Positions 16,761 through 41,670 of a DNA stretch of 43,613 nucleotides are shown here, piece by piece; position 1 is the first letter of the stretch; the number at the start of each line of letters is the position of its first letter. The DNA is from Thermoanaerobaculum sp. (lineage in GTDB: Bacteria > Acidobacteriota > Thermoanaerobaculia > Multivoradales > UBA5704): the NCBI GenBank assembly GCA_021154885.1, contig JAJKHS010000102.1:1-43613 (forward strand). The letters run 5' to 3'. The translations under genes and the position numbers were made by a program. The notes under the pieces are model-generated. The model saw only the letters and a program-made list of their open reading frames with translations, did not search any database and was not told the origin of the DNA.

Positions 16761-19921
<3,161 letters not shown>

Positions 19922-19932
19922 TCAGGCTCGCT

Positions 19933-20022
19933 TCATCGCTTCCCTACGCTGGCATTACCCAGGTCAGGTGATGAGGGTCGTCCCACGCGGGACTCTCAGC
20001 CTCGGCGGCCCCCCTAGCTGGC
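19933..20022 (-). promoter_or_regulatory. TPP riboswitch (THI element)
   Basis: On the minus strand the conserved boxes appear in order: GAGGCTGAGAG (P2/J3-2, with the invariant CTGAGA), ACCTGACCTGGGTAATGCCA, then GCGTAGGGAAG. These are the pyrimidine-sensing and pyrophosphate-sensing cores of the THI box. It is followed by a terminator hairpin and thiC, so thiamin pyrophosphate should repress thiC. Exact outer (P1) limits are approximate. Confidence 0.95.
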
Positions 20023-20029
20023 GTGGATG

Positions 20030-28452: not shown

Positions 28453-31400
28453 ATGAGCGCGCAAACGGAGAGCGGTCTCCTCAGGCTGGCGATTGCCAGG
28501 GGCCTCCTGCGTTGGGAGGACCTCGACTCGGTCTCCGACCAACTACCCGACAGCTCCAGCCGCGACGGCTCCCCGCTCGACGGCCGCTGGATCCGCGCGC
28601 TGCTCGACGCGGGCTATCTCACCCCCGCCATCGTCGCCACCCTCTCGGCCGAGTTGGAGCAGCCGCGGGACGACCTCACGCCGGACCTGAGGGGAGGGAG
28701 CAATTCCTGGAGCCGGCGCCCGTCCGGGCGGTTCCTCAGCCGGGAGGTTGTCTCCCCAGGCTCTGCCGAGGGGCTCGACCTCGCTCCCGAGTACCGCTTC
28801 CTGACGGACTGGACGCGCTACAACGTCGAACGCCTGCTGGGCGCCGGCGGCATGGGCACGGTCTACAAGGCCTTCGATCCCACCCTCGGCCGCTACGTCG
28901 CCCTCAAGTTCCTGCACCGCAACGACGACGACCATACCGAGCGCTTCCTTCGCGAGGCCCGGGCTCAGGCGCGCATCGCTCACCCCCACGTCTGCCAGGT
29001 GCACGAGGTGGGCGAGGTCGAGGGCCGCCCCTACATCGCCATGCAGTACATCGACGGCCGGAGCCTCGGCGAGCTGTGCGAGGAGCTGACGATCGAGACC
29101 AAGGTGCGGCTCATCCGCGACGTCGCCCGCGCCGTCCACGCCGCCCACCGGAACGGTCTCATCCACCGCGACCTCAAGCCGGGGAACATCCTGCTGGCGC
29201 GGGAGGAGTCCGGCGAGCTCCACCCCTTCGTGGTGGACTTCGGCCTCGCCTTGGAGCAGGACGAGACCACCCTCTCCCGCACCGGCATGATCAGCGGCAC
29301 CCCGGCCTACATCTCCCCCGAGCAGGCGCAGGGCAAGGCGCTCGACCGGCGGACGGACGTCTACAGCCTCGGCGTCGTGCTTTACGAGCTGCTGGCCGGC
29401 TTCCCACCGTTCAAGGGCTCCAACCTGGCGCGCATCCTCGTCGAGCTCGTCCAGGAGGACGCGAAGCCGCTGCGCCAGATCGATCCCGCCATTCCCGAGG
29501 ATCTGGAGACCCTGGTCGCCAAGTGTCTGGAGAAGGACCCGGCGCGGCGCTACGAGTCGGCCCGCGACCTCGCCGAGGACCTCGACCGTTTCCTGGAAGG
29601 GGACCCCATCCTCGCCCGTCCGGCCGGCTGGACCTACCGGGCGGGCAAGCGGCTGCGCAAGAACAAGGCCCTGGCGCTGGTCTCCGTGGCCGCGGTGCTG
29701 GCCCTGGCGGTCCTCGGCGCGGCGAGCGTGCGGGCGCAGTGGCGGGCGCGCGAGCGGGCCGAGCTCGCCCAGCGCTTCGGCCAGCGGATCGGCGAGCTCG
29801 AGAGCAGCATGATGTACGAGGCCTTCCTCCCCCGCCACGACATGACGCCCCACAAGCGGCGGCTGCGCCAGGGGATGGAGGCCATCGGCCGGGAGATGAA
29901 GCGGCTCGGGGAGATCGCGACAGGGCCGGGCAACTTCGCCCTGGGCCAGGGTTACCTCGCCCTCCACCAGCCCGACACGGCCCGCGTCTACCTGGAGCGC
30001 GCCTGGAATGCCGGGGAGCGGGACCCGGAGGTGGCCATCGCGCTCGGCGAGTCCCTCGCAGCCTCCTACGAGCGTGCCCTGGGCGACAGCAGCCTCCAGG
30101 CCAGCTCCGACAATCTCGACCGGACCTACCGCCGCCCCGCCCTGTCCTACCTCCGCGAGGCCGCGCGCAGCTCCCAGGGCTCCCCCTACGTCGCGGGTCT
30201 CAGCGCCTACCTTCAGCAGCGCTACCCCGAGGCGGTGGTCCAGGCGCGGCGGGCTCACCTCGAGAACCCCTCGTTCTACAAGGCCGCCCAGCTCGAAGCC
30301 GAAATCTACCTCGCGCAGGGGAGCGAAGCCATCATTGCCGGCCGCTATGAGGAGGCTCAAGGCCTCTTCGATCGCGCCGGCGCGGTCTATCGCCAGATCC
30401 TCACCCAGGTGCCCAGCGACGCCGGTCTCTACGCCGGCGACTGCGACCGCTGGAACCGCTGGCTCAGCGCGGCCCTCGCCACCCGCGACGTCCATGAGGA
30501 CGAGGTGGCCCGGGCGCGCGCCGCCTGCGACCTGGCCCTGTCGGTGGACCCGGAGCTGGCCGACGCCCTGGTCCTCCAAGCCTCCACCGCCTGGTCTCTG
30601 GGGGATCAGCAATACAAGCACGGCGCCAATCCGGAGCCCGATCTCACACAGGGCGTCCACCTTGCGGAGCGCGCCATCGCCATCGACCCGCGCAATGCCC
30701 GGGCGTTCAATCACCTCGCCTCCTGTCACCGTCTGCTGGCGCAATGGGAGCTGGGCCGGGGGCTCGATCCTCAAGACCACATCCTCAAGGGGATCGCCGC
30801 CGCCCGCAAGGCGATGGAGATCCAGCCGGAGATGGCCGCCGCCCATGCCGGCCTCGGCACCGCCTACCTGGTGCTGGTCCAGGCCCGGCAGCGGCGGGGT
30901 CTCGATCCCCGCCAGGCGGTGGAGGCAGCCGCCGCGAGCTACCAGCGGGCCATCGCTCTCGATCCGAAGCGCATCGGGTCCTTTGTCAACCTGGGGAACA
31001 CCTGGAAATCCATGGCCGAGGTCCAGGTCGCTCACGGGATGGATCCCAGCGATTCGGTGGGCAGGGCCGTGGCGGCTTTCCAGCAGGCGACGCACGTCAA
31101 TCCGAAGTACGCGCCGGCCTACAACAACCTGGGGAACGTCCACCTGACCCTGGGCGAATACCTGCTCACCCGCGGCAGCGATCCCCGTCAGGCCCTGACC
31201 GACGCCGCCCGCAGCTACGAGCACGCCCTCGCCATTAAGCCCGACTACGGGCTGGCCCGCTTCAATCTCGGCTACACCTATCGCAGCCTGGCCGAGGGGC
31301 TCGTGGACCAGCAGCAGGACCCGGGGCCGGCCCTGGCCGCCGCGGACGCCGCCCTGGGCGCGTACCTCCGCCTCAACCCCAACGACGCGGACACCTTCCT

Positions 31401-31866
31401 GGAGCAGGGACGCGTCCGCCTGGTGGCCGCGCGCTGGGACCTGCGGCGCAAGGCGAGCCCCGGACCCGCCCTGGACGCGGCCGCCGCCGGCCTGCGCCGC
31501 GCCGAGGAGGTCAACGCCAAGTCGCCGGATGTCCTCTTCGCCCAGGCCCAAGTGGCCCGTTGGCGCGCTGAGGCCGACCCCGGCAAATCCGAGGCAGCTT
31601 TGCGGGTTGGGTTGGACCGGGTGGGACGGGCCCTCGCCATCAACGCCGGCGAGGCTCGTTACCTCGCTTTGCGCGGTCTCTTCCAGCACCGCCTCGCCCG
31701 CCTCGACACGGACCCGGCCCGCAGGCGGGACGGCGCGCGCCAGGCCGTGGCCTCGCTTCAGGCGGCACTCAAGGCCAACCCCCTGCTGGAGCGGGAGTAC
31801 GGACCCGTGCTGGCGGACGCCCGACTGGACGCGGGAATGATCGGGCCGCCGCCGGTCAAGCTGTGA
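28453..31866 (+). CDS. Transmembrane Ser/Thr protein kinase with C-terminal TPR repeats
   Basis: 1137 residues. The first ~120 residues are an uncharacterised N-terminal region. The PknB-type kinase domain spans about 122-385: glycine loop GAGGMG (130-135), Lys152 in VALKFL, catalytic IHRDLKPGN (Asp240), DFG at 262-264 and GTPAYISPEQAQG in the activation segment. One membrane helix (ALALVSVAAVLALAVLGAAS, about 406-427) follows. The extracytoplasmic part is nearly all TPR-like helices (for example AYNNLGNVHLTLGEYLL). This kinase-TM-TPR layout is common in Acidobacteriota and Planctomycetes. Substrates are unknown. A candidate -10 (TACACT) lies at 28420-28425. Confidence 0.93.
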   Translation: MSAQTESGLLRLAIARGLLRWEDLDSVSDQLPDSSSRDGSPLDGRWIRALLDAGYLTPAIVATLSAELEQPRDDLTPDLRGGSNSWSRRPSGRFLSREVVSPGSAEGLDLAPEYRFLTDWTRYNVERLLGAGGMGTVYKAFDPTLGRYVALKFLHRNDDDHTERFLREARAQARIAHPHVCQVHEVGEVEGRPYIAMQYIDGRSLGELCEELTIETKVRLIRDVARAVHAAHRNGLIHRDLKPGNILLAREESGELHPFVVDFGLALEQDETTLSRTGMISGTPAYISPEQAQGKALDRRTDVYSLGVVLYELLAGFPPFKGSNLARILVELVQEDAKPLRQIDPAIPEDLETLVAKCLEKDPARRYESARDLAEDLDRFLEGDPILARPAGWTYRAGKRLRKNKALALVSVAAVLALAVLGAASVRAQWRARERAELAQRFGQRIGELESSMMYEAFLPRHDMTPHKRRLRQGMEAIGREMKRLGEIATGPGNFALGQGYLALHQPDTARVYLERAWNAGERDPEVAIALGESLAASYERALGDSSLQASSDNLDRTYRRPALSYLREAARSSQGSPYVAGLSAYLQQRYPEAVVQARRAHLENPSFYKAAQLEAEIYLAQGSEAIIAGRYEEAQGLFDRAGAVYRQILTQVPSDAGLYAGDCDRWNRWLSAALATRDVHEDEVARARAACDLALSVDPELADALVLQASTAWSLGDQQYKHGANPEPDLTQGVHLAERAIAIDPRNARAFNHLASCHRLLAQWELGRGLDPQDHILKGIAAARKAMEIQPEMAAAHAGLGTAYLVLVQARQRRGLDPRQAVEAAAASYQRAIALDPKRIGSFVNLGNTWKSMAEVQVAHGMDPSDSVGRAVAAFQQATHVNPKYAPAYNNLGNVHLTLGEYLLTRGSDPRQALTDAARSYEHALAIKPDYGLARFNLGYTYRSLAEGLVDQQQDPGPALAAADAALGAYLRLNPNDADTFLEQGRVRLVAARWDLRRKASPGPALDAAAAGLRRAEEVNAKSPDVLFAQAQVARWRAEADPGKSEAALRVGLDRVGRALAINAGEARYLALRGLFQHRLARLDTDPARRRDGARQAVASLQAALKANPLLEREYGPVLADARLDAGMIGPPPVKL

Positions 31867-32196: not shown

Positions 32197-33012
32197 TCAG
32201 AGCTCCTCCGGATCGCCCTGCGGCAGCGCGCCCTCGGCGATCAGCCGCTCGACGATCTGCTTGCGCTGGCGCTTGCGCTTCAGGCGCCGCTTCAGGATGG
32301 CGGCCATGGCGGCGAAGAAGACGACGGTGGCCGCGATGACAGCCTGGTCCTCATAGGGTTTTCCCCGGAACGCGCCGGCGACGTTGGCGTACAGCACGGT
32401 GAGCAGCCCCATGCCGGCGCTGGCGGTGTAAGCCTGCAGGGACTGCAGCGTGTCGAGCTTTTCGAGCTCGGTCAAACGCAGCTCGCGCCGCCGGTGGTAC
32501 GCGTGCAGATGGAGGAGCGCGAAGATGGCGAACACCGCCGCGCTCCCCAGACCGTAGATCGTCAACATCGGTGTGACGTGCTCCGGTTGGATCGCCCGTT
32601 CCAGGGTGCCGTTCGGCAGGCGGACCATCTTGCCGGCTCCGAGGAGCCGGTTGATGAGCGTGCTGAACAGGAACTTGAGCGGGAAGACGAAGAACAGGAC
32701 GACGAACAGCAATGCGCCGTTGAGAATGGCCGTCGTGCGGTCCTCCAGGCCATAGCGCCGGAAGAACATGAACTGCCGGTACCAGAGCACGTAGAGGAAG
32801 GCGAAGGTCAGGGCGAAGGAGATGAAGCCCCGCATCGCCTCCAGCAGCTCGCCCGAGGTGCGGGGGACCTCCAGGGCCACGATCAGCAGGGTGATGGCGA
32901 AGGCGAAGACGGCGTCGCTCAACCCCTCGAGCCGCGAGATCTCGCGGCTGCGCCAACGGAACTCGTGGCGAGCGGTGGCGGAATGGCGCTCGATGAGCTT
33001 GTCACGGAGCAT
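32197..33012 (-). CDS. TMEM175-family (DUF1211) potassium-channel-like membrane protein
   Basis: 271 residues with six predicted membrane helices. The first contains RLEGLSDAVFAFAITLLIV. The family signature R-x3-F-S-D appears as R-L-E-G-L-S-D, with Leu for Phe. Prokaryotic TMEM175 proteins form tetrameric potassium channels whose pore is lined by helix 1. The C-terminus is strongly basic (KRRLKRKRQRKQ) and probably cytoplasmic. The ATG at 33012 has GGAGGGAGG upstream and lies 11 bp inside the end of the M28 peptidase gene, so the two are co-transcribed. Function as a channel is inferred from family. Confidence 0.83.
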   Translation of the reverse strand: MLRDKLIERHSATARHEFRWRSREISRLEGLSDAVFAFAITLLIVALEVPRTSGELLEAMRGFISFALTFAFLYVLWYRQFMFFRRYGLEDRTTAILNGALLFVVLFFVFPLKFLFSTLINRLLGAGKMVRLPNGTLERAIQPEHVTPMLTIYGLGSAAVFAIFALLHLHAYHRRRELRLTELEKLDTLQSLQAYTASAGMGLLTVLYANVAGAFRGKPYEDQAVIAATVVFFAAMAAILKRRLKRKRQRKQIVERLIAEGALPQGDPEEL

Positions 33013-35098
33013 GTGGTCCTCCCTCCCGCAGCAGCACGCCGATCTTCTCCATCGCGGCCAGGTACTCCGCCACCTCGGCGACGGACAGCGGGCCACAGAT
33101 GGCCGCGAGGTCGTCCCGGATCTGTCTCACCGTCCGCCGGCCGTCCACCAGGTTCAGGGCCTCGTAGGCGTACTCGCCGCCGCCACCCCAGAGCCCTGTC
33201 CGCTTCATCAAGGCCGGCGACGGGATCGACTTCGCCGCGCTGTGATCCTCGAACCAGTCGTAGCCGAAGCCGCCCATGGGCCCCTTGGGATCGGTTGCGC
33301 GATGGTAGACCACGGTCTCTCCGGCCGCTGATTTCATGGCCGGGACCGGTCCCACCAGGCTCCGCAATCCGGTGAGGAAAGCCTCCGCCTCTTTTCGGAC
33401 CTCCGCCGGCGGCGCGGCGAAGCGGCCGATCGAATCCACCACCGCGGCCTCATAGGCGAGGTGGAAGCGCAGCAGGTTGGCGGCTTCCTCGACCTCACCA
33501 GCGGCCCGCAGACGGTCGGCGCGCGCCAGGGCCTCCGCCGTGCGCTCCAGGCTCCCCCGCCGCACCTCCTGCCAGAGGGCCGGCACCTGGGCTGCGTCGA
33601 GCCCGGCGAGATAGTACGCACTGGCGGCGCCGAGGAAGGCGGCGCGCAGGAGCTTCGTGGGGTCGATGTTGGCCACGGCGTCGGCGTGGGTATGGATGTA
33701 GCGGTCCGGCCAGTCGTTGAGATAGATCGCCGGCACCCGGAAGGAACCTTCGGTCCATACCTGATGGTCGCTCCCCTCGGTGAAATCCACCAGCTCCGCC
33801 TGCAGCGCCCGCTTGCTCCCCTCGGGGTCCACCAGGGAATAGGGCGCGGCGCCCGTGGCCGCCAGGGCGTACGACTGCTCGTTGACGAAGCGGCCGAAGG
33901 CCGCGCCCACGTCGTTGACGAAGGTCGGCAGGCTCTTCGGCGAGCGGGTGACGTGGAAAACAGCCTTGGTGATCTCGGCGTCGCCGCCGACCATGTCCAT
34001 GTGGATGACGGCCAAGGCCCGGGCGGCGAAATCGGGCCGGGCGTTGAGCAGCGAAATTGTCCCCTCGATCTCCGGCGGCCAGACGAAGCGGATGGTCCGC
34101 CGCGGCGCCGCCAGCTTCCCCTCCCGGATCAGCTTCGCCAGCGCGCGGCCGGTCTCCAGGATTGACGCGCAGCCGCTGGCGTTGTCGTTGGCTCCCGGCC
34201 GCTGGTGATCGAGATGGCAGGAGAGGACGACCTCGTGCGCGCGGTCCGCGCCCGGGATCACCGCCGTCGCAATGCTGTAGGCCCCGGGGTGCTGGCCGGC
34301 ACGCACGCTCGCCCGCAATCGCACCGGCTGGCCCTTCGCGAGCCGCTCCTGCCAGGCCCGAGCCTGCTTGAGCGACACCATGAAGGCGAAGGTCTTCGGC
34401 GCCGGGAAGGTGTTGAGATGCCCCCAGCGCACCAGCGTCTCGTCCTCCTTCCACCACCCCGTCACCTGGTTCTGGGCGTAGGAGACGAGGCCGGCGGCGC
34501 CGTGCTTGTCGACCGCCAGCGCGTAGACCGCGCCCGGCTGGGAAGAGGTCAGCACGAGCTTGCCGCGCACGTCCTTGCCTTGATAATCCGCCTCCGCCGT
34601 GCCGGCTCCCACGTCCACCAGCTCGGCCCCGACCTCGCCGCTGGCGCTGTCCTGGGCCAGCACGATGGGCCGCGCCTCCCAGGAGGCGATCCGCTCGGCG
34701 TCCACCCAGGCGCCGGTGTCCGCGCCAGCCTGTCTCTGCTCCCACAACTCGGCGAAATCCACATCCCAGGCCGGACGCGAGCGCTGAGTGCCATAGAAGA
34801 TCGTGCCGTCCGCCGGGAGCTCGACGATCTCCACCTCGGAGAGGCCATATTCCTGGGCCCGGTCCCGCACCCGCTCCGCCGCCGCCCGGAAGCCGCGGGA
34901 GCCCCGCATGCGGTGGAACAGGGTGAGATCCTGAAGGTTGCGCTTCGCCGCAGTGCCCGAGACCTCGGCGGCGAGCGCGCGCACGGCCGGCTCCGGCAGC
35001 AGGGGAGGCGGCGCGGTCGTCTGGGCGGAGAGGGCCGGGCTGAGCAGGAAGACCACGGACGCGGCGCACAGAGATCGGGCAATCTTCAAAGCTGACAT
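33002..35098 (-). CDS. Secreted M28-family aminopeptidase with PA insert and winged-helix-like tail
   Basis: 698 residues with a signal peptide (ARSLCAASVVFLLSPALSA). A PA-type insert at about 130-265 precedes the M28 catalytic core. LSCHLDHQRPGANDNASG carries the zinc ligands His295, Asp297 and the bridging Asp in GAND. The usual EE catalytic pair is replaced by PEIEG. HMDMVGGD and THADAVANID complete the site. The last ~60 residues (LNLVDGRRTVRQIRDDLAAI ... YLAAMEKIGVL) look like a PqqD-like winged-helix fold, odd for a secreted peptidase. GGAGGTGCTG precedes the ATG. It overlaps the channel gene by 11 bp and is divergent from the HAD gene. Confidence 0.87.
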   Translation of the reverse strand: MSALKIARSLCAASVVFLLSPALSAQTTAPPPLLPEPAVRALAAEVSGTAAKRNLQDLTLFHRMRGSRGFRAAAERVRDRAQEYGLSEVEIVELPADGTIFYGTQRSRPAWDVDFAELWEQRQAGADTGAWVDAERIASWEARPIVLAQDSASGEVGAELVDVGAGTAEADYQGKDVRGKLVLTSSQPGAVYALAVDKHGAAGLVSYAQNQVTGWWKEDETLVRWGHLNTFPAPKTFAFMVSLKQARAWQERLAKGQPVRLRASVRAGQHPGAYSIATAVIPGADRAHEVVLSCHLDHQRPGANDNASGCASILETGRALAKLIREGKLAAPRRTIRFVWPPEIEGTISLLNARPDFAARALAVIHMDMVGGDAEITKAVFHVTRSPKSLPTFVNDVGAAFGRFVNEQSYALAATGAAPYSLVDPEGSKRALQAELVDFTEGSDHQVWTEGSFRVPAIYLNDWPDRYIHTHADAVANIDPTKLLRAAFLGAASAYYLAGLDAAQVPALWQEVRRGSLERTAEALARADRLRAAGEVEEAANLLRFHLAYEAAVVDSIGRFAAPPAEVRKEAEAFLTGLRSLVGPVPAMKSAAGETVVYHRATDPKGPMGGFGYDWFEDHSAAKSIPSPALMKRTGLWGGGGEYAYEALNLVDGRRTVRQIRDDLAAICGPLSVAEVAEYLAAMEKIGVLLREGGPHAP

Positions 35099-35161
35099 CA
35101 GCACCTCCGAAGTCCGGGAACGACTTCGGGATGGTACACCTCTTGCTCCCCTCCTCGCGCC

Positions 35162-35866
35162 ATGCCGATGAATCCGCAATCCGCCCCGGCCCGCCCCTGG
35201 CGCGCCGTCATCCTCGACATGGATGGCACCCTCATCGACAGCAACGCCGCCCATGTCCACGCCTGGGTGGAGGCCCTGCGCGAGGGCGGCTACGAGGTCT
35301 CCGAGGACGATATCTGGCCCCTGGTCGGGATGGGCGGGGACAACCTCCTCCCTGCCGCCGTGGGGGTCGACAAGGATTCGGCGGAGGGCAAGAAGCTCAG
35401 CGAGCGGCGGGGCGAGATCTTCCGCGAGCGCTACCTCCCCCACCTGAAGCCCTTCCCCCAGGTGCGGCCGCTGCTGGAGCGAATGCGCCGGGACGGGCTG
35501 CGGCTGATGGTGGCCAGCTCCTCGCCCAAGGACGAGCTCCAGTGCTCGCTCGAGCTGGCCGGCGTGGCTGACCTCGTGGAGGGCGCCAGCTCGGGGAGCG
35601 ACGGCGGCCGTTCCAAGCCCGACCCGGACGTGGTCGAGGCCGCACTGAAAAAGCTGGGGCTTGCCGCTGACGAGGTCGTGATGCTGGGCGACACGCCCTA
35701 CGACGTCCAGGCCGCCGCCAAGGTGAACGTGCCGGTCATCGCCTTCCGCTGCGGCGGCTTCCGCGACGAAGACCTGAAGGGCGCGATCGCCCTCTACGAC
35801 GATGCCACGGACCTGCTGGCCCACTACGACGAGTCGCCGCTGGCCGGGTCCGAAGGCCCGGACTAG
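35162..35866 (+). CDS. HAD-superfamily hydrolase (phosphoglycolate/beta-phosphoglucomutase-like)
   Basis: 234 residues with all four HAD motifs: ILDMDGTLIDSN (nucleophile Asp19, general acid Asp21), the Ser in MVASSSPKDE, the Lys in SKPDPDV, and VMLGDTPYDVQAA (acidic pair). The helical cap lies between motifs I and II. Such enzymes act on small sugar phosphates or phosphoglycolate; the true substrate cannot be told. It has a non-conserved Ser/Gly-rich segment (EGASSGSDGGRS). Cytoplasmic. Met3 is an alternative start. Confidence 0.9.
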   Translation: MPMNPQSAPARPWRAVILDMDGTLIDSNAAHVHAWVEALREGGYEVSEDDIWPLVGMGGDNLLPAAVGVDKDSAEGKKLSERRGEIFRERYLPHLKPFPQVRPLLERMRRDGLRLMVASSSPKDELQCSLELAGVADLVEGASSGSDGGRSKPDPDVVEAALKKLGLAADEVVMLGDTPYDVQAAAKVNVPVIAFRCGGFRDEDLKGAIALYDDATDLLAHYDESPLAGSEGPD

Positions 35867-35883
35867 GAGCCTGCGCGGCAATC

Positions 35884-36015: not shown

Positions 36016-37344
36016 ATGCCGCATCATCGCTCGCATCGAGCCCACGCCGCCGTCCTGGGGAGCGGCATCGCCGGCCTTGCGGCCGCGGGGGCGCTCGCCC
36101 CGCTTTGCGAGCGGATCACCGTCTTCGAGCGGGATGACCCGCCCGCAGAGTGTGGCCCGCGCAAGGGGGTGCCTCAGGGGCGGCACGGCCACATCCTGCT
36201 CATGGACGGCGAGAACGCCCTGGCGGAAACGTTCCCCGGCCTGGTGGCCGAGCTCGAAGCCCGGGGCTCCTGCCGCGTGAACTTCGGCTCCGAGCTGCGG
36301 TGGTTCCATCACGGCGTCTGGAAGGTTCCCTACGACAGCCGGCTCATCGTCCACATGCAGAGCCGGCCCTTCCTCGAAGCGATCCTCCGTGAACGCCTGG
36401 CGGGCCTCGGCAACGTGAAGTTCCGCTACCGCACGGCGGCTCACGAGCTCGACGTCGAGGGGGGCCGGGCGACGGCCGTGCGCGTGCGCGAAGCCGAGGG
36501 GCCTGAGGAGACGGCGGCGGCCGACCTGATCGTGGACGCCACCGGCCGTGGCTCCTCCCTGGTCCGGCTGCTGGCGGCCCACGGCTATCCGGCGCCGCGC
36601 GAGGAGCGGCTGGCCCTCGACATCCAGTACTCCTCGCGCCTCTATCGCCCGAGGCCGGGCTCGCAGCAGCCGTGGAAGGCTCTCCTCGTCGCCCAGACGC
36701 CGCCCGCGAAGCGCCGTCTCGGCCTCGTCTTTCCGGTGGAGGACGGGCGTTGGATCGTCTCGCTGGGCGGTTATCTGGGAGAGCACCCGCCGGCGAACGA
36801 GGAGGGCTTCCTGGACTTCGCCCGCAGCCTGGAGCAGCCCGACCTGCTCGCCGCCCTGCGCGACGCCGAGCCGCTCTCCGAGATCCAGGCCCTCCGCTTT
36901 CCCACCGCGCGCTGGACCCGCTTCGAGCGGCTCTCCCGCTTCCCCGCCGGCCTGCTGCCGGTCGGCGACACGGTCTGCAGCTTCGATCCGGTCTTCGGCC
37001 AGGGGATGTCGGTGGCGGCCCGCGGTGCCCGGCTGCTGGCGGCCCACGTGGACCGCGACCCGCGGGCCGGCGATCCCAAACCCTACCTGCGCGCCCTGGC
37101 GCGGGTGGTGGCCGTGCCCTGGCTCCTCACCTCCTCCGAGGACCTGCGCTACGCGGGGGTGGAGGGCCGGCGGCCGTTCTGGCTGCCCTGGCTTCAGCGC
37201 TACACCCACCGCGTCTTCCGGCTCACGGGGGCGAGCGCTCCCGACTACGACCGGCTGCTGCGCGTCCTCCACCTGCTGGCGCGGCCGCCGCTCCTCTTCC
37301 ATCCCGCCACCCTGGCGCGGGCGGTGGGGCGGACGGCTCGCTAA
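36016..37344 (+). CDS. FAD-dependent oxidoreductase / monooxygenase-like protein
   Basis: 442 residues. The N-terminal Rossmann fold has AAVLGSGIAGLAAAGAL (GxGxxG, Gly15-Gly20) and TVFERDD, the acidic strand end for FAD ribose. RKGVPQGRHGHILLMDG is typical of a group-A flavin monooxygenase/halogenase-like subfamily. LLPVGDTVCSFDPVFGQGMS is the second FAD motif. There is no halogenase W-x-W-x-I-P motif visible. A cytoplasmic enzyme, perhaps acting on an aromatic or polyprenoid substrate, but substrate and partner are unknown. It ends 15 bp from the convergent mosA-like gene. I see no reason to tie it to that operon. Confidence 0.82.
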   Translation: MPHHRSHRAHAAVLGSGIAGLAAAGALAPLCERITVFERDDPPAECGPRKGVPQGRHGHILLMDGENALAETFPGLVAELEARGSCRVNFGSELRWFHHGVWKVPYDSRLIVHMQSRPFLEAILRERLAGLGNVKFRYRTAAHELDVEGGRATAVRVREAEGPEETAAADLIVDATGRGSSLVRLLAAHGYPAPREERLALDIQYSSRLYRPRPGSQQPWKALLVAQTPPAKRRLGLVFPVEDGRWIVSLGGYLGEHPPANEEGFLDFARSLEQPDLLAALRDAEPLSEIQALRFPTARWTRFERLSRFPAGLLPVGDTVCSFDPVFGQGMSVAARGARLLAAHVDRDPRAGDPKPYLRALARVVAVPWLLTSSEDLRYAGVEGRRPFWLPWLQRYTHRVFRLTGASAPDYDRLLRVLHLLARPPLLFHPATLARAVGRTAR

Positions 37345-37359
37345 CGGCCGGGATCGCCC

Positions 37360-38178
37360 TCAGTCGGCGTGGACGATCGTCCCCACGTGCTCCCCCGCCA
37401 GCGCCGCGCCGAGAAGCTCCGGCTTCAGACCGTTGATGACTTGGACGCTGCGTACCAGCCGCGACCGCTCCAGGAGGTCGAGGAGCACCTCGTCGAACGG
37501 CAGCGTCCGCACCCGCCGGTTCCGCAGCTCGGCGACGCCGACGTCGCGGATCAGGCTCGCTCCGGGGTTCTCCTTGGGATCGGCGTCGTAGACGCCGTCC
37601 ACGTCCTTGACCAGGATCACGCTCTTGCAGCCGAAGCACTCGGCCACCAGATAGGAGCCGGCGTCGGTGCGGTGGGGCGGAATGCGCCCGATCCCCGGCG
37701 GGTGTTCCCACAGCGAGTACGGCGGGTCGCCGTTGAAGATCACCCCGGGCGCGCCGCGCAGGAAGAGCGGCAGCAGATGGCCGAAGAGCTCCGGAGGGAT
37801 GGCCACCACCCCCAGCGGTGCGAGCAGCGTCCCCAGGATGTGGGCATTGCCGAGCGCGTCGGCGATGGCCACCTGGGCCAGCACGCCGGTCGGCAGGCCG
37901 AGGTCGAGGCCGATCGAGAACACGTGCCGGCTGCGCACGCCGCCGCCGGTGCCGAGGATCAGCTTGTGGCGGGTGAGGACGTCCCCCAGGGCGTCGACCA
38001 GGGGGAGCACCGCCGACCGGCCGCGGTCCATGATCGATCGGCCGCCGAGCTTGACCACGTGGGCGTCGGGCAGCATCCGCACCGGCGGCGTGCGGCTGTC
38101 GGTCGACGCCATCACGTCCTTGTCGACGAGGCTCTCGCGCATCAGGAACGAGCTGACATGGTGTCGTTCGTCGGGCAT
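37360..38178 (-). CDS. mosA: Molybdenum storage protein subunit, alpha-like
   Basis: 272 residues, amino-acid-kinase fold. VVKLGGRSIMDRGRSAVLPL and ILGTGGGVRSRHVFSIGLDL match the nucleotide-binding start of MosA/MosB and UMP kinases. PPHRTDAGSYLVAECFGCKS, VKDVDGVYDADPKENP and QVINGLKPELLGAALAGEHV are MoSto-like rather than PyrH-like. In Azotobacter the MosAB hexamer takes up molybdate with ATP hydrolysis and packs polyoxomolybdate clusters inside a cage. This subunit starts 10 bp after the MosB-like gene with AAAGGGAG upstream. Assignment as alpha versus beta rests on which neighbour is more beta-like, and both could be checked against the metal-binding residues. Confidence 0.78.
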   Translation of the reverse strand: MPDERHHVSSFLMRESLVDKDVMASTDSRTPPVRMLPDAHVVKLGGRSIMDRGRSAVLPLVDALGDVLTRHKLILGTGGGVRSRHVFSIGLDLGLPTGVLAQVAIADALGNAHILGTLLAPLGVVAIPPELFGHLLPLFLRGAPGVIFNGDPPYSLWEHPPGIGRIPPHRTDAGSYLVAECFGCKSVILVKDVDGVYDADPKENPGASLIRDVGVAELRNRRVRTLPFDEVLLDLLERSRLVRSVQVINGLKPELLGAALAGEHVGTIVHAD

Positions 38179-38188
38179 GGGCTCCCTT

Positions 38189-39016
38189 TCAATCGGCGGA
38201 GATTAGAGTCCCCACGTCCTCCCCTTCGAGGGCGCGGGTGAGGTTGCCGGGAACGAGCCCGTTGATGACGCGGATCGAGCGCTGGAGCCGGGCGTTCCGC
38301 ATCAGCTCCAGCACCGCCCGCTCGACCACCACGTCCTGGAGGTCCATGGCCAGCAGCTCGGCGACGGTGATTTTGGGGATCCACTTCGCGTCGCGGTCCT
38401 TCTTGGGATCAGCCGTGTAGAGTCCGTCCTCGTCCTTGACGAAGATCATCGAGCGGGCGCCGAAGACCTCGCTCACCAGATAGGCGCCGGTGTCCGTGCG
38501 GTGCGGCGGGATGCGCCCCACGGCCGGGTTCTGCTGCCAGAAGGTGTAGGGCGGCATGGCGAAGAAGATCGCCGCCCGGCGCTCGGCGAGGTAGAGCGGG
38601 AGCTGGGCGAACTGCGCCGGCTCGATGAATGGGACGCCGTGGCGGGCCAGCAGGTAGTGCAGCATGCGGGCGTTCTGCATGCTGACGAAAGTGCCCAGCA
38701 CCGAGAGCACCCCGGTGGGCATGCCGAGGTCGAGGCCCACACTGTAGGCGTGGCGGGCACGGGTGCCGGCGCCGGTGCCGAGGAGCATCTGGTGCCGGGG
38801 CAGGTTGCGGACCACCTCGTCGATGAGGGGGAACACGGCCTTGCGACCCCGGTCGATGATGCTCTGGCCGCCGATCTTGACGACGTTGACCTCGGGCAGG
38901 ATGCGCTCCACCGGCCCGCCGTCGGTCTGCCGCAGCAGCTCGGGGTCGGTCAGCGAGCCCTGGACCAGGGCCGAGCCCAGCGCGGTCAGCAGCTCCGTGT
39001 CCATCGCGTGCTTCAT
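38189..39016 (-). CDS. mosB: Molybdenum storage protein subunit, beta-like
   Basis: 275 residues. From memory it is very close to Azotobacter MosB: VVKIGGQSIIDRGRKAVFPL, LLGTGAGTRARHAYSVGLDL, IPPHRTDTGAYLVSEVFGAR, MIFVKDEDGLYTADPKKDRD and INGLVPGNLTRALEGEDVGT. UMP kinase lacks several of these, and the two-gene arrangement also fits MoSto. The ATG at 39016 overlaps the stop of the methyltransferase gene (ATGA, 39013-39016) and has AGAGGAG five bases upstream. It should assemble with the MosA-like subunit into an ATP-driven molybdate or tungstate storage cage in the cytoplasm. No molybdate transporter or nitrogenase gene is in the window. Confidence 0.85.
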   Translation of the reverse strand: MKHAMDTELLTALGSALVQGSLTDPELLRQTDGGPVERILPEVNVVKIGGQSIIDRGRKAVFPLIDEVVRNLPRHQMLLGTGAGTRARHAYSVGLDLGMPTGVLSVLGTFVSMQNARMLHYLLARHGVPFIEPAQFAQLPLYLAERRAAIFFAMPPYTFWQQNPAVGRIPPHRTDTGAYLVSEVFGARSMIFVKDEDGLYTADPKKDRDAKWIPKITVAELLAMDLQDVVVERAVLELMRNARLQRSIRVINGLVPGNLTRALEGEDVGTLISAD

Positions 39017-39801
39017 GAAGTCTCCTCTGAAACGGGAAGGCGGACCGCGGCCAGCTCGTAGGATTCGGTCGCCTCCCGGGTAAAGTCGAGGGTACCCCAG
39101 GTCTGCTCCGCCCAGGCGGCGAGCCGCTCGAGCACGTCGTGGCGGACCTCGGGGAGGACGTCGGCGCCGGCAAGGTCGGGCTTGCTCCGCCAGGAGGCGA
39201 GAGAGTCCGCCACCCGCTCCAGCACCGGCCAGGACGCGGCCGTCCGCGGCGGGAGAGGATCGCCGCCGCGCGCCGCGAAGGCGGAGAACAGAAGGCTCCG
39301 GGCCTCCTCGCCGCCGCGGCCCGCGACGCCGTGCCCGGCCAGCAGACGCCGCATCTGTCGCCGCAGAATGGCGCGCAGGCTGTCCCCCTCGCGGCGGACC
39401 CGGCCGAGGACGAACACCGCCCCAGCCGGATGCGCCACCCGCAGCGTCTCATCCACCAGCCGCTCCGGAGTGAAGAGGTGGGCCGCCCGCGACGCGAACA
39501 CGGCCCGTGCGATCCCGGAGCGTAGCGGCCACGGCCGGTCCGCGTCCGCCTGGAGCAGCGCGGCCCGGCCCGTCCTCCCATGGAACACGCCGAGCATGTC
39601 CAGCGAGAGGTCGAGACCCGTGTAGCGGGCTCCCGCAGCGATCAAGGCCGACCCGATCTCCCCAGTGCCGGCGCCCAGCTCCAGCAGCAGGCCGTCGGGA
39701 CAGACCTCCCGCAACGCGCTGACGATCTGTTCCACGGCCGCGGCCGGCAGGCCTGCACGCCGGTCGAAGCTACCCGCCTGGGCATCGAATGCCGCGTTCA
39801 A
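39013..39801 (-). CDS. Class I SAM-dependent methyltransferase in the molybdenum-storage operon
   Basis: 262 residues. LLLELGAGTGEIGSALIAAG is SAM motif I (about 38-57), followed by YTGLDLSLDMLGVF (acidic ribose-binding loop) and ARAVFASRAAHLF (motif IV region). Overall pattern is like the UbiE/methyltransferase-11 group; substrate unknown. The start codon is TTG (39799-39801), supported by GGAGG seven bases upstream. It is the first gene of the operon and its stop overlaps the mosB-like start, so it is translationally coupled to the storage protein. A role in metal storage is suggested only by this coupling. Confidence 0.8.
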   Translation of the reverse strand: MNAAFDAQAGSFDRRAGLPAAAVEQIVSALREVCPDGLLLELGAGTGEIGSALIAAGARYTGLDLSLDMLGVFHGRTGRAALLQADADRPWPLRSGIARAVFASRAAHLFTPERLVDETLRVAHPAGAVFVLGRVRREGDSLRAILRRQMRRLLAGHGVAGRGGEEARSLLFSAFAARGGDPLPPRTAASWPVLERVADSLASWRSKPDLAGADVLPEVRHDVLERLAAWAEQTWGTLDFTREATESYELAAVRLPVSEETS

Positions 39802-39845: not shown

Positions 39846-39851
39846 AGTATA
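39846..39851 (-). promoter_or_regulatory. Putative -10 element of the methyltransferase-mosBA operon
   Basis: TATACT on the minus strand, 44 bp before the TTG start. No good -35 is visible. I see no ModE-type palindrome in the gap 39802-39931. Confidence 0.35.
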
Positions 39852-39918
39852 TCTTGCTCGGTCAGCGGCTGCCGACGGCATCCTTCCGAGCGGCGCGAGA
39901 GGGGATCGGTCCGCATGG

Positions 39919-39931: not shown

Positions 39932-40180
39932 ATGGGGGAAGCCGTCGTCTACCACGTTCAGGCGGATTGGGATCCCGAAGCGGGGGTCTGGGTCGCCATC
40001 AGCGAAGACGTCCCGGGGCTGGCCACCGAGGCCGGAACCATCGAGGCTCTCACGGAGAAGCTCCGCACGATGATCCCTGAGCTGCTGGAAGCCAACCAGA
40101 TCCTTTCTCCCTCCCAGGCCGAAGCCATTTCCTTCGAGCTGACGAGCCACCGCCAGGAGCCGCTGTTCCTGGCGTCTTGA
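39932..40180 (+). CDS. HicB-like antitoxin (DUF1902 type)
   Basis: 82 residues. MGEAVVYHVQADWDPEAGVW, then VAISEDVPGLATEAGTIEAL is the partial RNase-H-like fold of HicB/DUF1902 antitoxins (strand with D/E.G.W.A...D.PGL). The C-terminus lacks an obvious helix-turn-helix. It neutralises the HicA toxin encoded directly downstream, whose ATG follows this gene's TGA without any gap. Antitoxin-first order is the reverse of canonical hicAB but is usual for DUF1902 pairs, as far as I recall. An ATG 12 bp upstream is an alternative start. Confidence 0.8.
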   Translation: MGEAVVYHVQADWDPEAGVWVAISEDVPGLATEAGTIEALTEKLRTMIPELLEANQILSPSQAEAISFELTSHRQEPLFLAS

Positions 40181-40378
40181 ATGGGCTCGTCCTTCACACC
40201 GCAGGTCAAGAAGCTGCTGCTGGCGCATGGCTGCCGTTTCGAGCGTCCGGGAAAGGGCGACCACGAGATCTGGTTCAGCCCCATCACGCAGCGCCGCTTC
40301 GTAGTTGATGGCGACATCAAGTCCCGTCACACCGCGAACGCCGTTTTGAGACAGGCTGGAATCGGCAAGCAGTTTTAA
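40181..40378 (+). CDS. HicA-like mRNA interferase toxin
   Basis: 65 residues with a dsRBD-like HicA fold: VKKLLLAHGCRFERPGKGDH, then EIWFSPITQRRFVVDGDIKS. The catalytic His of HicA (usual G-S-H) is probably His28 in GKGDHEIW. The C-terminal helix region HTANAVLRQAGI matches the family's L..I..QAGL. HicA cleaves mRNA when not bound by HicB. Start codon abuts the antitoxin stop. No terminator is obvious downstream. Confidence 0.85.
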   Translation: MGSSFTPQVKKLLLAHGCRFERPGKGDHEIWFSPITQRRFVVDGDIKSRHTANAVLRQAGIGKQF

Positions 40379-40468: not shown

Positions 40469-40786
40469 TTACAAGCATACTCTACTAGGATCAGAGCCGT
40501 ACAGCGACTCCCGGATCTGGACAGCCATCTGCGACAAACGCCGGCCGACCTGCGAATCCATCAACGGCTCGAACCGCAGGTTACGCCAGTCCACGTACTG
40601 GCGGGCGGCCAGGGTTTCGGCGAGAGGGTCGGCGGCCCGGCGCGCGGTGTCGTTGAAGAGTGGGGTATCCACGTAGTAGATCGGCAGGATGAGGTCGCGG
40701 CGTCCGAGCTTCTTCTCCCGCTCCAGAAAAATCTCCAACTCTTCCCGGCAGTAGGGGCTCTTGAAGAAGGCCGGTGTCAGGACCGA
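40469..40786 (-). pseudogene. TIR-domain gene fragment, 5' end lost
   Basis: The 105-codon open frame begins directly after a TAA (40787-40789) and has no start codon in context. It reads SVLTPAFFKSPYCREELEIF, then LEREKKLGRRDLILPIYYVD, then a C-terminal helix region ending SQMAVQIRES. This is the second half of a bacterial TIR domain. S-P-Y-C-R-E-E includes the Glu that is catalytic in TIR NADases. The first half with the FISY-type strand is missing, and hairpin-rich repeats begin at the break. Partner domains beyond residue ~95 are also absent. A TTG at 40738 could start an 89-residue piece, but it would lack the NAD pocket. I read this as a dead remnant of a TIR effector. Confidence 0.75.
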
Positions 40787-41228: not shown

Positions 41229-41582
41229 CTATGCTGCTCGTCGCCCGTCCAGGAAGGTCTCGGCCTGATCGGACGGGATCTCCTTCACCTTCACGGTCAT
41301 TTGTTTGTTCGAGCCCGAGACGACGATCTGCGAGCGGAACTCTCCGGAGAAGGTCCCCGTCACCTTGTAGTCCGTGCAGCCCTGGGCCCGCGGCCCGGTC
41401 CAGCCCATCACGTCGACCTTCAGACCGCCGACGAAATGCGAATCTCTCACCAGGGTGATGCCGTAGGTGTAGTTCGGCGCACAGCCCTCCACCTCGACCA
41501 CGAAGTGGCCAGGCTCATCCAAGCCTGTCCACACATACCACGCCTGCGCCTTGTCGAACGGTTCCGTGCCATAGAAGCCCAT
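41229..41582 (-). CDS. Hypothetical protein, 117 residues
   Basis: Starts MGFYGTEPFDKAQAWYVWTG, supported by AAAAGGAG six bases upstream of the ATG at 41582; a TTG 18 bp upstream is less likely. No signal peptide. The pattern of alternating hydrophobic residues (HFVVEVEG, GGLKVDVMGWTG, YKVTGTFSGEF, KQMTVKVKEI) points to a beta-sandwich. Two cysteines. I recognise no family and the neighbours give no clue. The 3' end reaches the edge of the fold-back repeat, so the last residues (about ETFLDGRRAA) may be repeat-derived. Confidence 0.6.
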   Translation of the reverse strand: MGFYGTEPFDKAQAWYVWTGLDEPGHFVVEVEGCAPNYTYGITLVRDSHFVGGLKVDVMGWTGPRAQGCTDYKVTGTFSGEFRSQIVVSGSNKQMTVKVKEIPSDQAETFLDGRRAA

Positions 41583-41670
41583 GATGATCTCCTTTTCCAA
41601 TCGGTTTTTTCACCGCGATCCAACTCGCTGGAGAACCGATAGAGCAAGGCAGATGCCAGGAAAAAAGTGA

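Follow-up and report, generated by a model that had tools for sequence, protein, structure and literature searches.

A methyltransferase-linked gene pair of the molybdenum storage protein family with altered chamber residues

A three-gene cassette on a complete contig

In molybdenum storage protein (MoSto), which serves some nitrogen-fixing bacteria as a molybdenum store, polyoxometalates are assembled inside a protein cage, an (alpha-beta)3 complex that takes up about 100 molybdenum or tungsten atoms and hydrolyzes ATP. We analyzed a complete contig of 43,613 bases from Thermoanaerobaculum sp. (JAJKHS010000102.1, assembly GCA_021154885.1; hereafter the window), on the minus strand of which a gene for an S-adenosylmethionine (SAM)-dependent methyltransferase precedes two genes for orthologs of the MoSto subunits. 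The features of this cassette are as follows:

39013..39801, minus strand: class I SAM-dependent methyltransferase, first cassette gene (262 aa; TTG start; Methyltransf_11 in Pfam, 2.1e-10)
38189..39016, minus strand: ortholog of MosB, the beta subunit, second cassette gene (275 aa; assigned by phmmer and tree)
37360..38178, minus strand: ortholog of MosA, the alpha subunit, third cassette gene (272 aa; assigned by phmmer, tree and fold search)
39846..39875, minus strand: putative sigma-70-like promoter, TCGGCA-18-TATACT, 45 bp 5′ of the methyltransferase TTG (a consensus match alone)

The methyltransferase stop and the mosB start share a 4-bp overlap, mosB and mosA are spaced by 10 bp, and the single promoter match compares with a mean of 0.1 in shuffled sequence. 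Because the 3′ neighbor, a gene for a flavin adenine dinucleotide-dependent oxidoreductase (36016-37344, plus strand), is convergent, and because a Pfam search of the small upstream open reading frames (ORFs; 39958-40320, 40469-40738 and 41229-41600) returned no family, the cassette seems to be isolated in the window genome. An earlier reading of the bare sequence (the original prediction) had proposed a MoSto-like operon led by a methyltransferase, and its three ORFs, their coordinates, the TTG start and the 4-bp overlap were all reproduced. The motifs that it quoted for the two subunits, VKDEDGLYTADP and INGLVPGNLTRAL, are present, but both lie in the MosB-like protein and neither comes from the MosA-like protein, which contains VKDVDGVYDADP and INGLKPELLGAAL.

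Both cage subunits belong to the MoSto family

When PDB sequences were searched with phmmer, the second gene product matched MosB at 306.9 bits (E = 1.1e-90) and MosA at 211.6 bits, and the third matched MosB at 238.1 bits (E = 1.2e-69) and MosA at 205.1 bits, whereas the best uridine monophosphate (UMP) kinase scores were 36.2 and 35.1 bits, respectively. The Pfam family AA_kinase was detected in both proteins. The NCBIfam models for PyrH fell short of their cut-offs (TIGR02076, 56.0 and 64.2 bits against 158.05; TIGR02075, 43.8 and 28.2 bits against 243.9); no MoSto model was matched by either subunit in the NCBIfam search, and the UMP kinase, aspartate kinase and similar models that did match all remained below cut-off. 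Such matches may account for the naming of the MosB relative as uridine kinase or uridine monophosphate kinase in 8 of 10 Azospirillum plasmid records. These mosB relatives, at 53-55% identity, were seen on NC_013859.1, NZ_CP032327.1 and six other plasmids.

A separate amino-acid-kinase gene, read by eye as lying between tsf and frr like pyrH, is found on contig C60 of the window genome. The AlphaFold model of the MosA-like protein (mean predicted local distance difference test score, pLDDT, 83.5, with the N-terminus and loop 155-163 below 50) retrieved 12 MoSto entries at Z 31.6-33.1, against Z 24.9 for the best UMP kinase; this fold comparison covered the MosA-like model, and the MosB-like protein was compared by sequence. 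Both cage genes therefore belong to the MoSto family and are not UMP kinases, as phmmer, the tree described below and the MosA-like fold search all favor MosA and MosB, and the family assignment of the original prediction was borne out. A UMP kinase origin was ruled out by phmmer, the NCBIfam cut-offs, the tree, the separate pyrH-like gene and the fold search.

The window genes fall into a third MoSto clade

To place the cassette among its relatives, we used the best 80 of 92 matches from a scan of 84,980 species genomes, which employed short patterns of one protein and may have missed distant members. Sorted by identity, these loci fall into three types (names coined here), the window type with 46, the Azotobacter type with 15 and the Pseudonocardia type with 19, and the tree agreed. 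The tree, built from 158 subunit rows, contains six groups, one for each subunit of each type and each on one side of a branch. All 78 MosA rows of the three types, including that of the window, lay on one side of a branch with Shimodaira-Hasegawa-like approximate likelihood ratio test (SH-aLRT) support of 99 and the MosB rows on the opposite side, indicating that the window genes are MosA and MosB orthologs and did not arise by fresh duplication. The tree thus placed both subunits with MosA and MosB, in keeping with the original prediction. Support for the window-type branch was low for the full sets (MosA 44, MosB 42) and reached 99 with one row fewer; L045 is a long branch. Judged by sequence, the window type is a third MoSto clade, separate from the Azotobacter and Pseudonocardia types.

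Window-type MosB proteins are 67-80% identical to the window protein (83% for one partial MosB), and mean pairwise identity within the cassette is 76% for MosB, 68% for MosA and 37% for the methyltransferase (26 rows). All 46 window-type loci come from metagenome-assembled genomes (MAGs) with labels from 12 phyla; two loci are unlabelled, L044, L046 and L047 are absent from the tree used for the labels, and binning errors are possible in the phylum labels of these carriers. Among 59 relatives, the window genome included, 9 carry mosBA (E ≤ 1e-138; remaining matches 1e-12 or weaker), and loci L004, L008, L014, L017 and L049 come from five of these nine genomes, so that relative and locus counts are not independent. 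Across 396 genomes of the phylum, four carry the window type and three a more distant type (51-59% identity).

Like the Azotobacter vinelandii MoSto, the window proteins are paired amino-acid-kinase-fold subunits with adjacent mosB and mosA genes, and their identity to it is 55% for MosB and 43% for MosA. The Pseudonocardia-type MosBA (19 of the 80 loci) has the same subunit pair, with MosB at 55-61% identity, but it forms a separate clade, its loci contain no match to the window methyltransferase, and no close copy was found in the one such genome searched (G068). MoSto relatives outside diazotrophs are not new with the window clade alone, as the Azotobacter-type group includes Nitrobacter and others. 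In the open-licence literature that we searched, no paper described the window-type clade or the methyltransferase link in its title or abstract.

The published cluster ligands are replaced in MosA

A passage of PMC4504029 describes Mo8 clusters covalently bound to His156 and Glu129 in MoSto, together with three symmetry-related histidines at the threefold axis, for which that passage gives no residue number. The PDB entry 6h6w, titled 'H156A', by its own alpha-chain sequence and with the Azotobacter sequence, puts Glu129 and His156 in MosA. In the 15 Azotobacter-type MosA rows, Glu129 is present in 14, His156 in 14 and His140, which we take to be the threefold-axis histidine, in all 15. The window type differs at each of these positions. 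Among its 45 MosA rows, position 129 is Pro in every row, position 140 is Phe in 43, Ile in 1 and Val in 1, and position 156 is Ser in 38, Ala in 6 and Asp in 1, with His in none. (Residue tables comprised rows longer than 230 aa, which dropped the MosB of L047 and the MosA of L062 and L069; no MosA was found for L044 and L046.) In the window MosA itself, P128, F139 and S155 occupy the columns of Azotobacter MosA E129, H140 and H156, and misalignment of the ligand columns is unlikely because the stretch from Gly124 to Tyr155 aligns without a gap. The cage-lining residues expected of a MoSto by the original prediction are accordingly not there: the published Mo8 ligands Glu129 and His156 occur in 0 of 45 window-type MosA proteins, and His140 is gone as well. 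Membership in the MoSto family holds, yet storage of molybdenum in the MoSto manner does not follow from it, because these ligands are missing. Pseudonocardia-type MosA has also lost Glu129 and His156, but keeps His140 (17 of 17) and has lost Lys45 (Val in 14, Ala in 3).

At 29 MosA columns the Azotobacter and window types are each fixed, to 90% or more, for a different residue. Of these columns, 14 lie among the 36 positions 125-160 and 15 among the 230 others (Fisher 1.1e-6); for the longer segment 100-160, the counts are 20 of 61 columns inside and 9 of 205 outside (p 2e-8). The rows are not independent, and both segments were chosen after the residue table had been seen. The corresponding concentration in MosB was not significant (7 of 36 against 21 of 234 columns, p 0.07; segment 101-160, p 0.09). 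Window-type MosA has its own fixed polar and other residues, namely His134 (45/45), Glu130 (42/45), Trp157 (45/45), Glu158 (45/45) and His159 (43/45), and window-type MosB has Glu132 (45/46), Gln135 (43/46), Gln138 (46/46), Arg146 (46/46) and His120 (44/46). Two of the latter fall at columns of interest: MosB has Glu (Glu132, 45/46) at the column of MosA Glu129 and Gln (Gln138, 46/46) at that of MosA Gln136, the second being reached after a one-residue alignment gap. The window MosB also differs in this pair from the Azotobacter MoSto, although 3 of 15 Azotobacter-type MosB rows likewise have Glu at the MosA Glu129 column.

The nucleotide-binding loops are retained in both subunits, as they are in the Azotobacter protein: K42, G44, G45 and R81 of MosB are kept in 46 of 46 rows and K45 of MosA in 45 of 45. 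MosB K42 is the residue changed in PDB 6ris ('Kb42S' in the entry title). The Lys of the VKD motif is present in both window-type subunits, and Glu190, found in 15 of 15 Azotobacter-type MosA proteins, is Lys in 45 of 45 of the window type.

A methyltransferase recurs beside mosBA

The methyltransferase has the SAM motif LELGAGTGEIG, an AlphaFold2 model with a mean pLDDT of 93.7, and homologs of which 28 members were aligned. In 30 of 42 informative loci, spread over 11 phyla, mosB is preceded by a homolog with the same orientation (upstream sequence was too short for judgment in L019, L029, L043 and L047; the partial methyltransferases of L023 and L034 were counted as present). The gap to mosB is at most 100 bp, or an overlap, in 25 of these 30 loci, and is wider in L021 (2 kb) and in L005, L011, L020 and L022 (260-408 bp). 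The gene order suggested by the original prediction is therefore conserved in these 30 loci. Among the 59 relatives, a close copy (E ≤ 5.2e-38) adjoins mosBA in 9 of 9 carriers and occurs in 0 of 50 non-carriers (Fisher 8e-11, kinship ignored); the other matches were 1.6e-8 or weaker, barring the second piece of the split G029 copy. In the phylum sample, close copies were found in 5 of 396 genomes, which are the four carriers and G272.

The presence and absence of the methyltransferase correspond to three changes on the cage-gene tree. Over 26 loci (L023, L028, L034, L044 and L046 excluded), pairwise distances correlate at 0.59 between methyltransferase and MosB, 0.67 between methyltransferase and MosA and 0.66 between MosB and MosA, and for each of the two methyltransferase-cage correlations 0 of 2000 permutations were as high. 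The methyltransferase is a real and recurrent partner of the cassette across many phyla.

The closest PDB chain to the methyltransferase model is 2yqz, TTHA0223 of Thermus thermophilus (Z 26.7 over 250 residues, 29% identity), followed, after the entries of this protein (2yqz, 2yr0), by the next distinct protein at Z 19.3. TTHA0223 matches the window methyltransferase profile over its full length (E 3.2e-38), and its titles name no function, that of the PDB record being 'hypothetical methyltransferase'. Below it, natural-product, quinone, lipid and rRNA methyltransferases are closely ranked. The methyltransferase probably acts on a small molecule; its substrate class is a guess, because the fold search ranks several classes close together. 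The NCBIfam models CpaM and DVU_1556 match 26 of the 28 members, but the window member lies far below cut-off and no substrate could be read from them, and this route to an assignment was dropped.

Transport genes and other neighbors

The cassette has modA and modB homologs nearby in 13 of 46 loci, and modA in 14 of 46, many of the loci being short contigs. Fourteen ModA-like proteins were aligned, and NCBIfam assigned the set at L013 to ModA, ModB and ModC with scores above cut-offs (TIGR01256, TIGR02141 and TIGR02142). In 6 of the 9 relative carriers, the only modA match in the genome is no more than about 3 kb from mosB, which points to molybdate or tungstate; modA as such is common and scores above cut-off in 46 of 59 relatives.

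Of the 35 loci in which 2 kb or more of downstream sequence is available, 10 have an ATP-binding cassette type 2 (ABC-2) permease and an ABC ATPase after mosA and in the same orientation; L010 and L037, with shorter downstream sequence, have them as well. The pair is DrrAB-like and stands directly after mosA in, for example, L005, L008, L013, L014 and L049; its NCBIfam matches are to drug-resistance-type subfamilies, below cut-off. In L021 the pair sits between the methyltransferase and mosB, and in L042 it occurs without a methyltransferase. A CueO-like multicopper oxidase gene is near mosBA in 13 of 46 loci (e.g., L025, L030, L033, L038 and L063), 7 of them in the gammaproteobacterial branch that has no methyltransferase, and copper and molybdenum may conceivably be linked here. 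In L032 (Pseudohongiella) and L033 (a related gammaproteobacterial MAG), two ORFs occupy the place of the methyltransferase and were read by eye as selenophosphate synthase and tRNA 2-selenouridine synthase, and in both loci a CueO-like multicopper oxidase follows mosA. An Rfam search at the gathering threshold in the window and in L004, L008, L013, L014, L015 and L049 returned no molybdenum-cofactor riboswitch and only a thiamine pyrophosphate (TPP) riboswitch in the window.

No nifH in the carriers, and molybdopterin enzymes in the window genome

The nitrogenase gene nifH (TIGR01287) was above cut-off in 0 of the 59 relatives, the window genome among them, and was found at E ≤ 1e-60 in 0 of 46 window-type carrier genomes. 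Of the four Azotobacter-type genomes used as controls, Azotobacter, Azomonas and Methylocapsa were positive and Xanthobacter AM3 was negative. As far as nifH shows, the cassette is thus without nitrogenase, as had been supposed, and a link to nitrogen fixation was rejected on nifH alone. The coupled methyltransferase and a host without nifH set the window type apart from the Azotobacter MoSto.

On sequence matches, the window genome has molybdopterin enzymes to supply. It contains 7 matches of the dimethyl sulfoxide (DMSO)-reductase type, one with an in-frame TGA as expected for a selenocysteine enzyme. The CO-dehydrogenase large-subunit family has 13 matches in this genome, of which one is above cut-off. 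One molybdopterin oxidoreductase ORF (G000:C80:57145-58434), perhaps a selenocysteine formate dehydrogenase, has one in-frame TGA, as is likewise seen in many relatives. The DMSO-reductase-type family PF00384 is uninformative about the cassette, because it is present in 59 of 59 relatives. Form I coxL was more frequent in carriers than in other relatives (4 of 9 against 5 of 50; Fisher p 0.024, uncorrected).

A proposed rebuilt storage cage and its alternatives

With modest confidence, we favor a reading in which the two cage genes specify an oxyanion store that is driven by ATP and has a rebuilt chamber, and the dedicated methyltransferase most likely acts on a small molecule. ModABC would import the oxyanion, most likely molybdate and possibly tungstate. 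MosBA, probably as an (alpha-beta)3 hexamer, would use ATP to pack it into clusters in an inner chamber whose binding residues are unlike those of Azotobacter MoSto. The stored oxyanion may later be released to molybdopterin enzymes, a destination proposed because no nifH was found. The translationally coupled methyltransferase would methylate a small molecule that works with the cage, its product being, for example, an organic ligand with a part in capping, delivering or releasing the oxyanion, and in some genomes the ABC-2 exporter pair, encoded in the same direction, may join the cassette. The window clade would then be a candidate molybdenum or tungsten store for bacteria dependent on molybdopterin enzymes. 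A passage of PMC11980592 describes other proteins, the molbindins Mop/Tub and ModG, as storing molybdenum or tungsten inside cells; these are TOBE-domain proteins, in contrast to the amino-acid-kinase cage of the window.

Several observations weigh against this reading. With the published Mo8 ligands absent from all 45 MosA proteins, the known cluster chemistry cannot be assumed. modA is distant from the cassette in the window genome (G000, where it is on contig C73), G003 and G016. No single tested host enzyme tracks the cassette: form I coxL occurs in just 6 of 46 window-type carriers across phyla, and a general link to form I CO dehydrogenase was abandoned. Of the 42 informative loci, 12 have no methyltransferase, namely ten of one gammaproteobacterial clade, a Flavobacteriales MAG and a Bacillota MAG, and whole-genome searches of 9 such carriers yielded no close copy (best 2.1e-16), whereas three carriers used as positive controls gave 3e-89 or better; the methyltransferase is therefore dispensable for the cage. 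The same search found no close copy in the Pseudonocardia, Methylocapsa, Xanthobacter and Azotobacter genomes (one each; best 2.1e-16). The two genes also occur apart: in G272 (L130, G272:C519) the methyltransferase is truncated by a contig end, other genes follow it, and the genome gave no mosB match, an absence that is less sure because the phylum scans scored at most six candidates per genome, and in L046 (a Phycisphaerae MAG) the methyltransferase and mosB are present with no mosA within about 8 kb downstream. In addition, although small-molecule enzymes are numerous among the fold neighbors of the methyltransferase, many others there modify rRNA, lipids or quinones, which leaves the small-molecule reading weak. 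The partner methyltransferase envisaged as fixed by the original prediction is thus recurrent (30 of 42 loci; 9 of 9 carriers against 0 of 50 other relatives) but not universal. Overall, the earlier finding is real, stronger in the recurrence of the methyltransferase and weaker in the residues of a molybdenum store.

The loss of all known Mo8 ligands invites an unlikely alternative, in which the two subunits form a heteromeric kinase of the amino-acid-kinase fold that acts on a small molecule and has abandoned storage. The methyltransferase, and the ABC-2 exporter in loci that have one, would act on the same metabolite, for example in making and exporting a small compound. The VKD Lys in both subunits, the change of MosA Glu190 to Lys, the upstream methyltransferase and the ABC-2 pair downstream in 10 of 35 loci would all fit such an enzyme. 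Against it stand the modABC neighbors and the retention of both MoSto subunits as an ordered pair of high identity (MosB 76%, MosA 68%); moreover, most loci are without the exporter, whose NCBIfam matches stay below cut-off.

We consider it improbable that the cassette encodes an ordinary MoSto storing molybdenum, with neutral ligand changes and a methyltransferase carried as a passenger through operon inertia. Family membership and fold are what this explanation predicts, 12 of 42 loci do without the methyltransferase, and the existence of the H156A variant 6h6w in the PDB (by its title) implies that the cage can form without the His156 ligand. The methyltransferase nevertheless stands near mosB in 11 phyla and separates 9 of 9 carriers from 0 of 50 other relatives, and the replacements are fixed in the clade and concentrated in MosA 125-160. 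Misannotated UMP kinase paralogs beside a methyltransferase are very improbable and were refuted on sequence grounds: they would share the Pfam family, the below-cut-off UMP or aspartate kinase-like NCBIfam models and the uridine (monophosphate) kinase names of the Azospirillum records, but MoSto is favored by at least 200 bits, a pyrH-like gene lies elsewhere (C60), and the tree and the fold search both speak against UMP kinases.

Within the preferred storage reading, a bolder form is tentative and rather doubtful: the third MoSto class may build a different polyoxometalate, possibly organically capped or non-molybdenum, held by beta Glu132 and Gln138 plus the new alpha His134 and His159, with the methyltransferase making the ligand that caps, delivers or releases it. 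If true, the third-class cage would carry biological polyoxometalate storage into many non-diazotroph phyla. A conserved nifH-less clade with other chamber residues and a methyltransferase offers a natural experiment on cluster type and metal.

Other features of the window

The remaining annotated features of the window are as follows:

17927-19897, minus strand: ThiC ORF, downstream of the TPP riboswitch
19924-20025, minus strand: TPP riboswitch (Rfam RF00059, 68.5 bits), upstream of the ThiC ORF
28453-31866, plus strand: large protein of 1137 aa with a protein kinase domain followed by tetratricopeptide (TPR) repeats
33002-35881, minus strand: long ORF encoding an M28 peptidase domain; its C-terminus is weakly PqqD-like (below cut-off, E 0.006)

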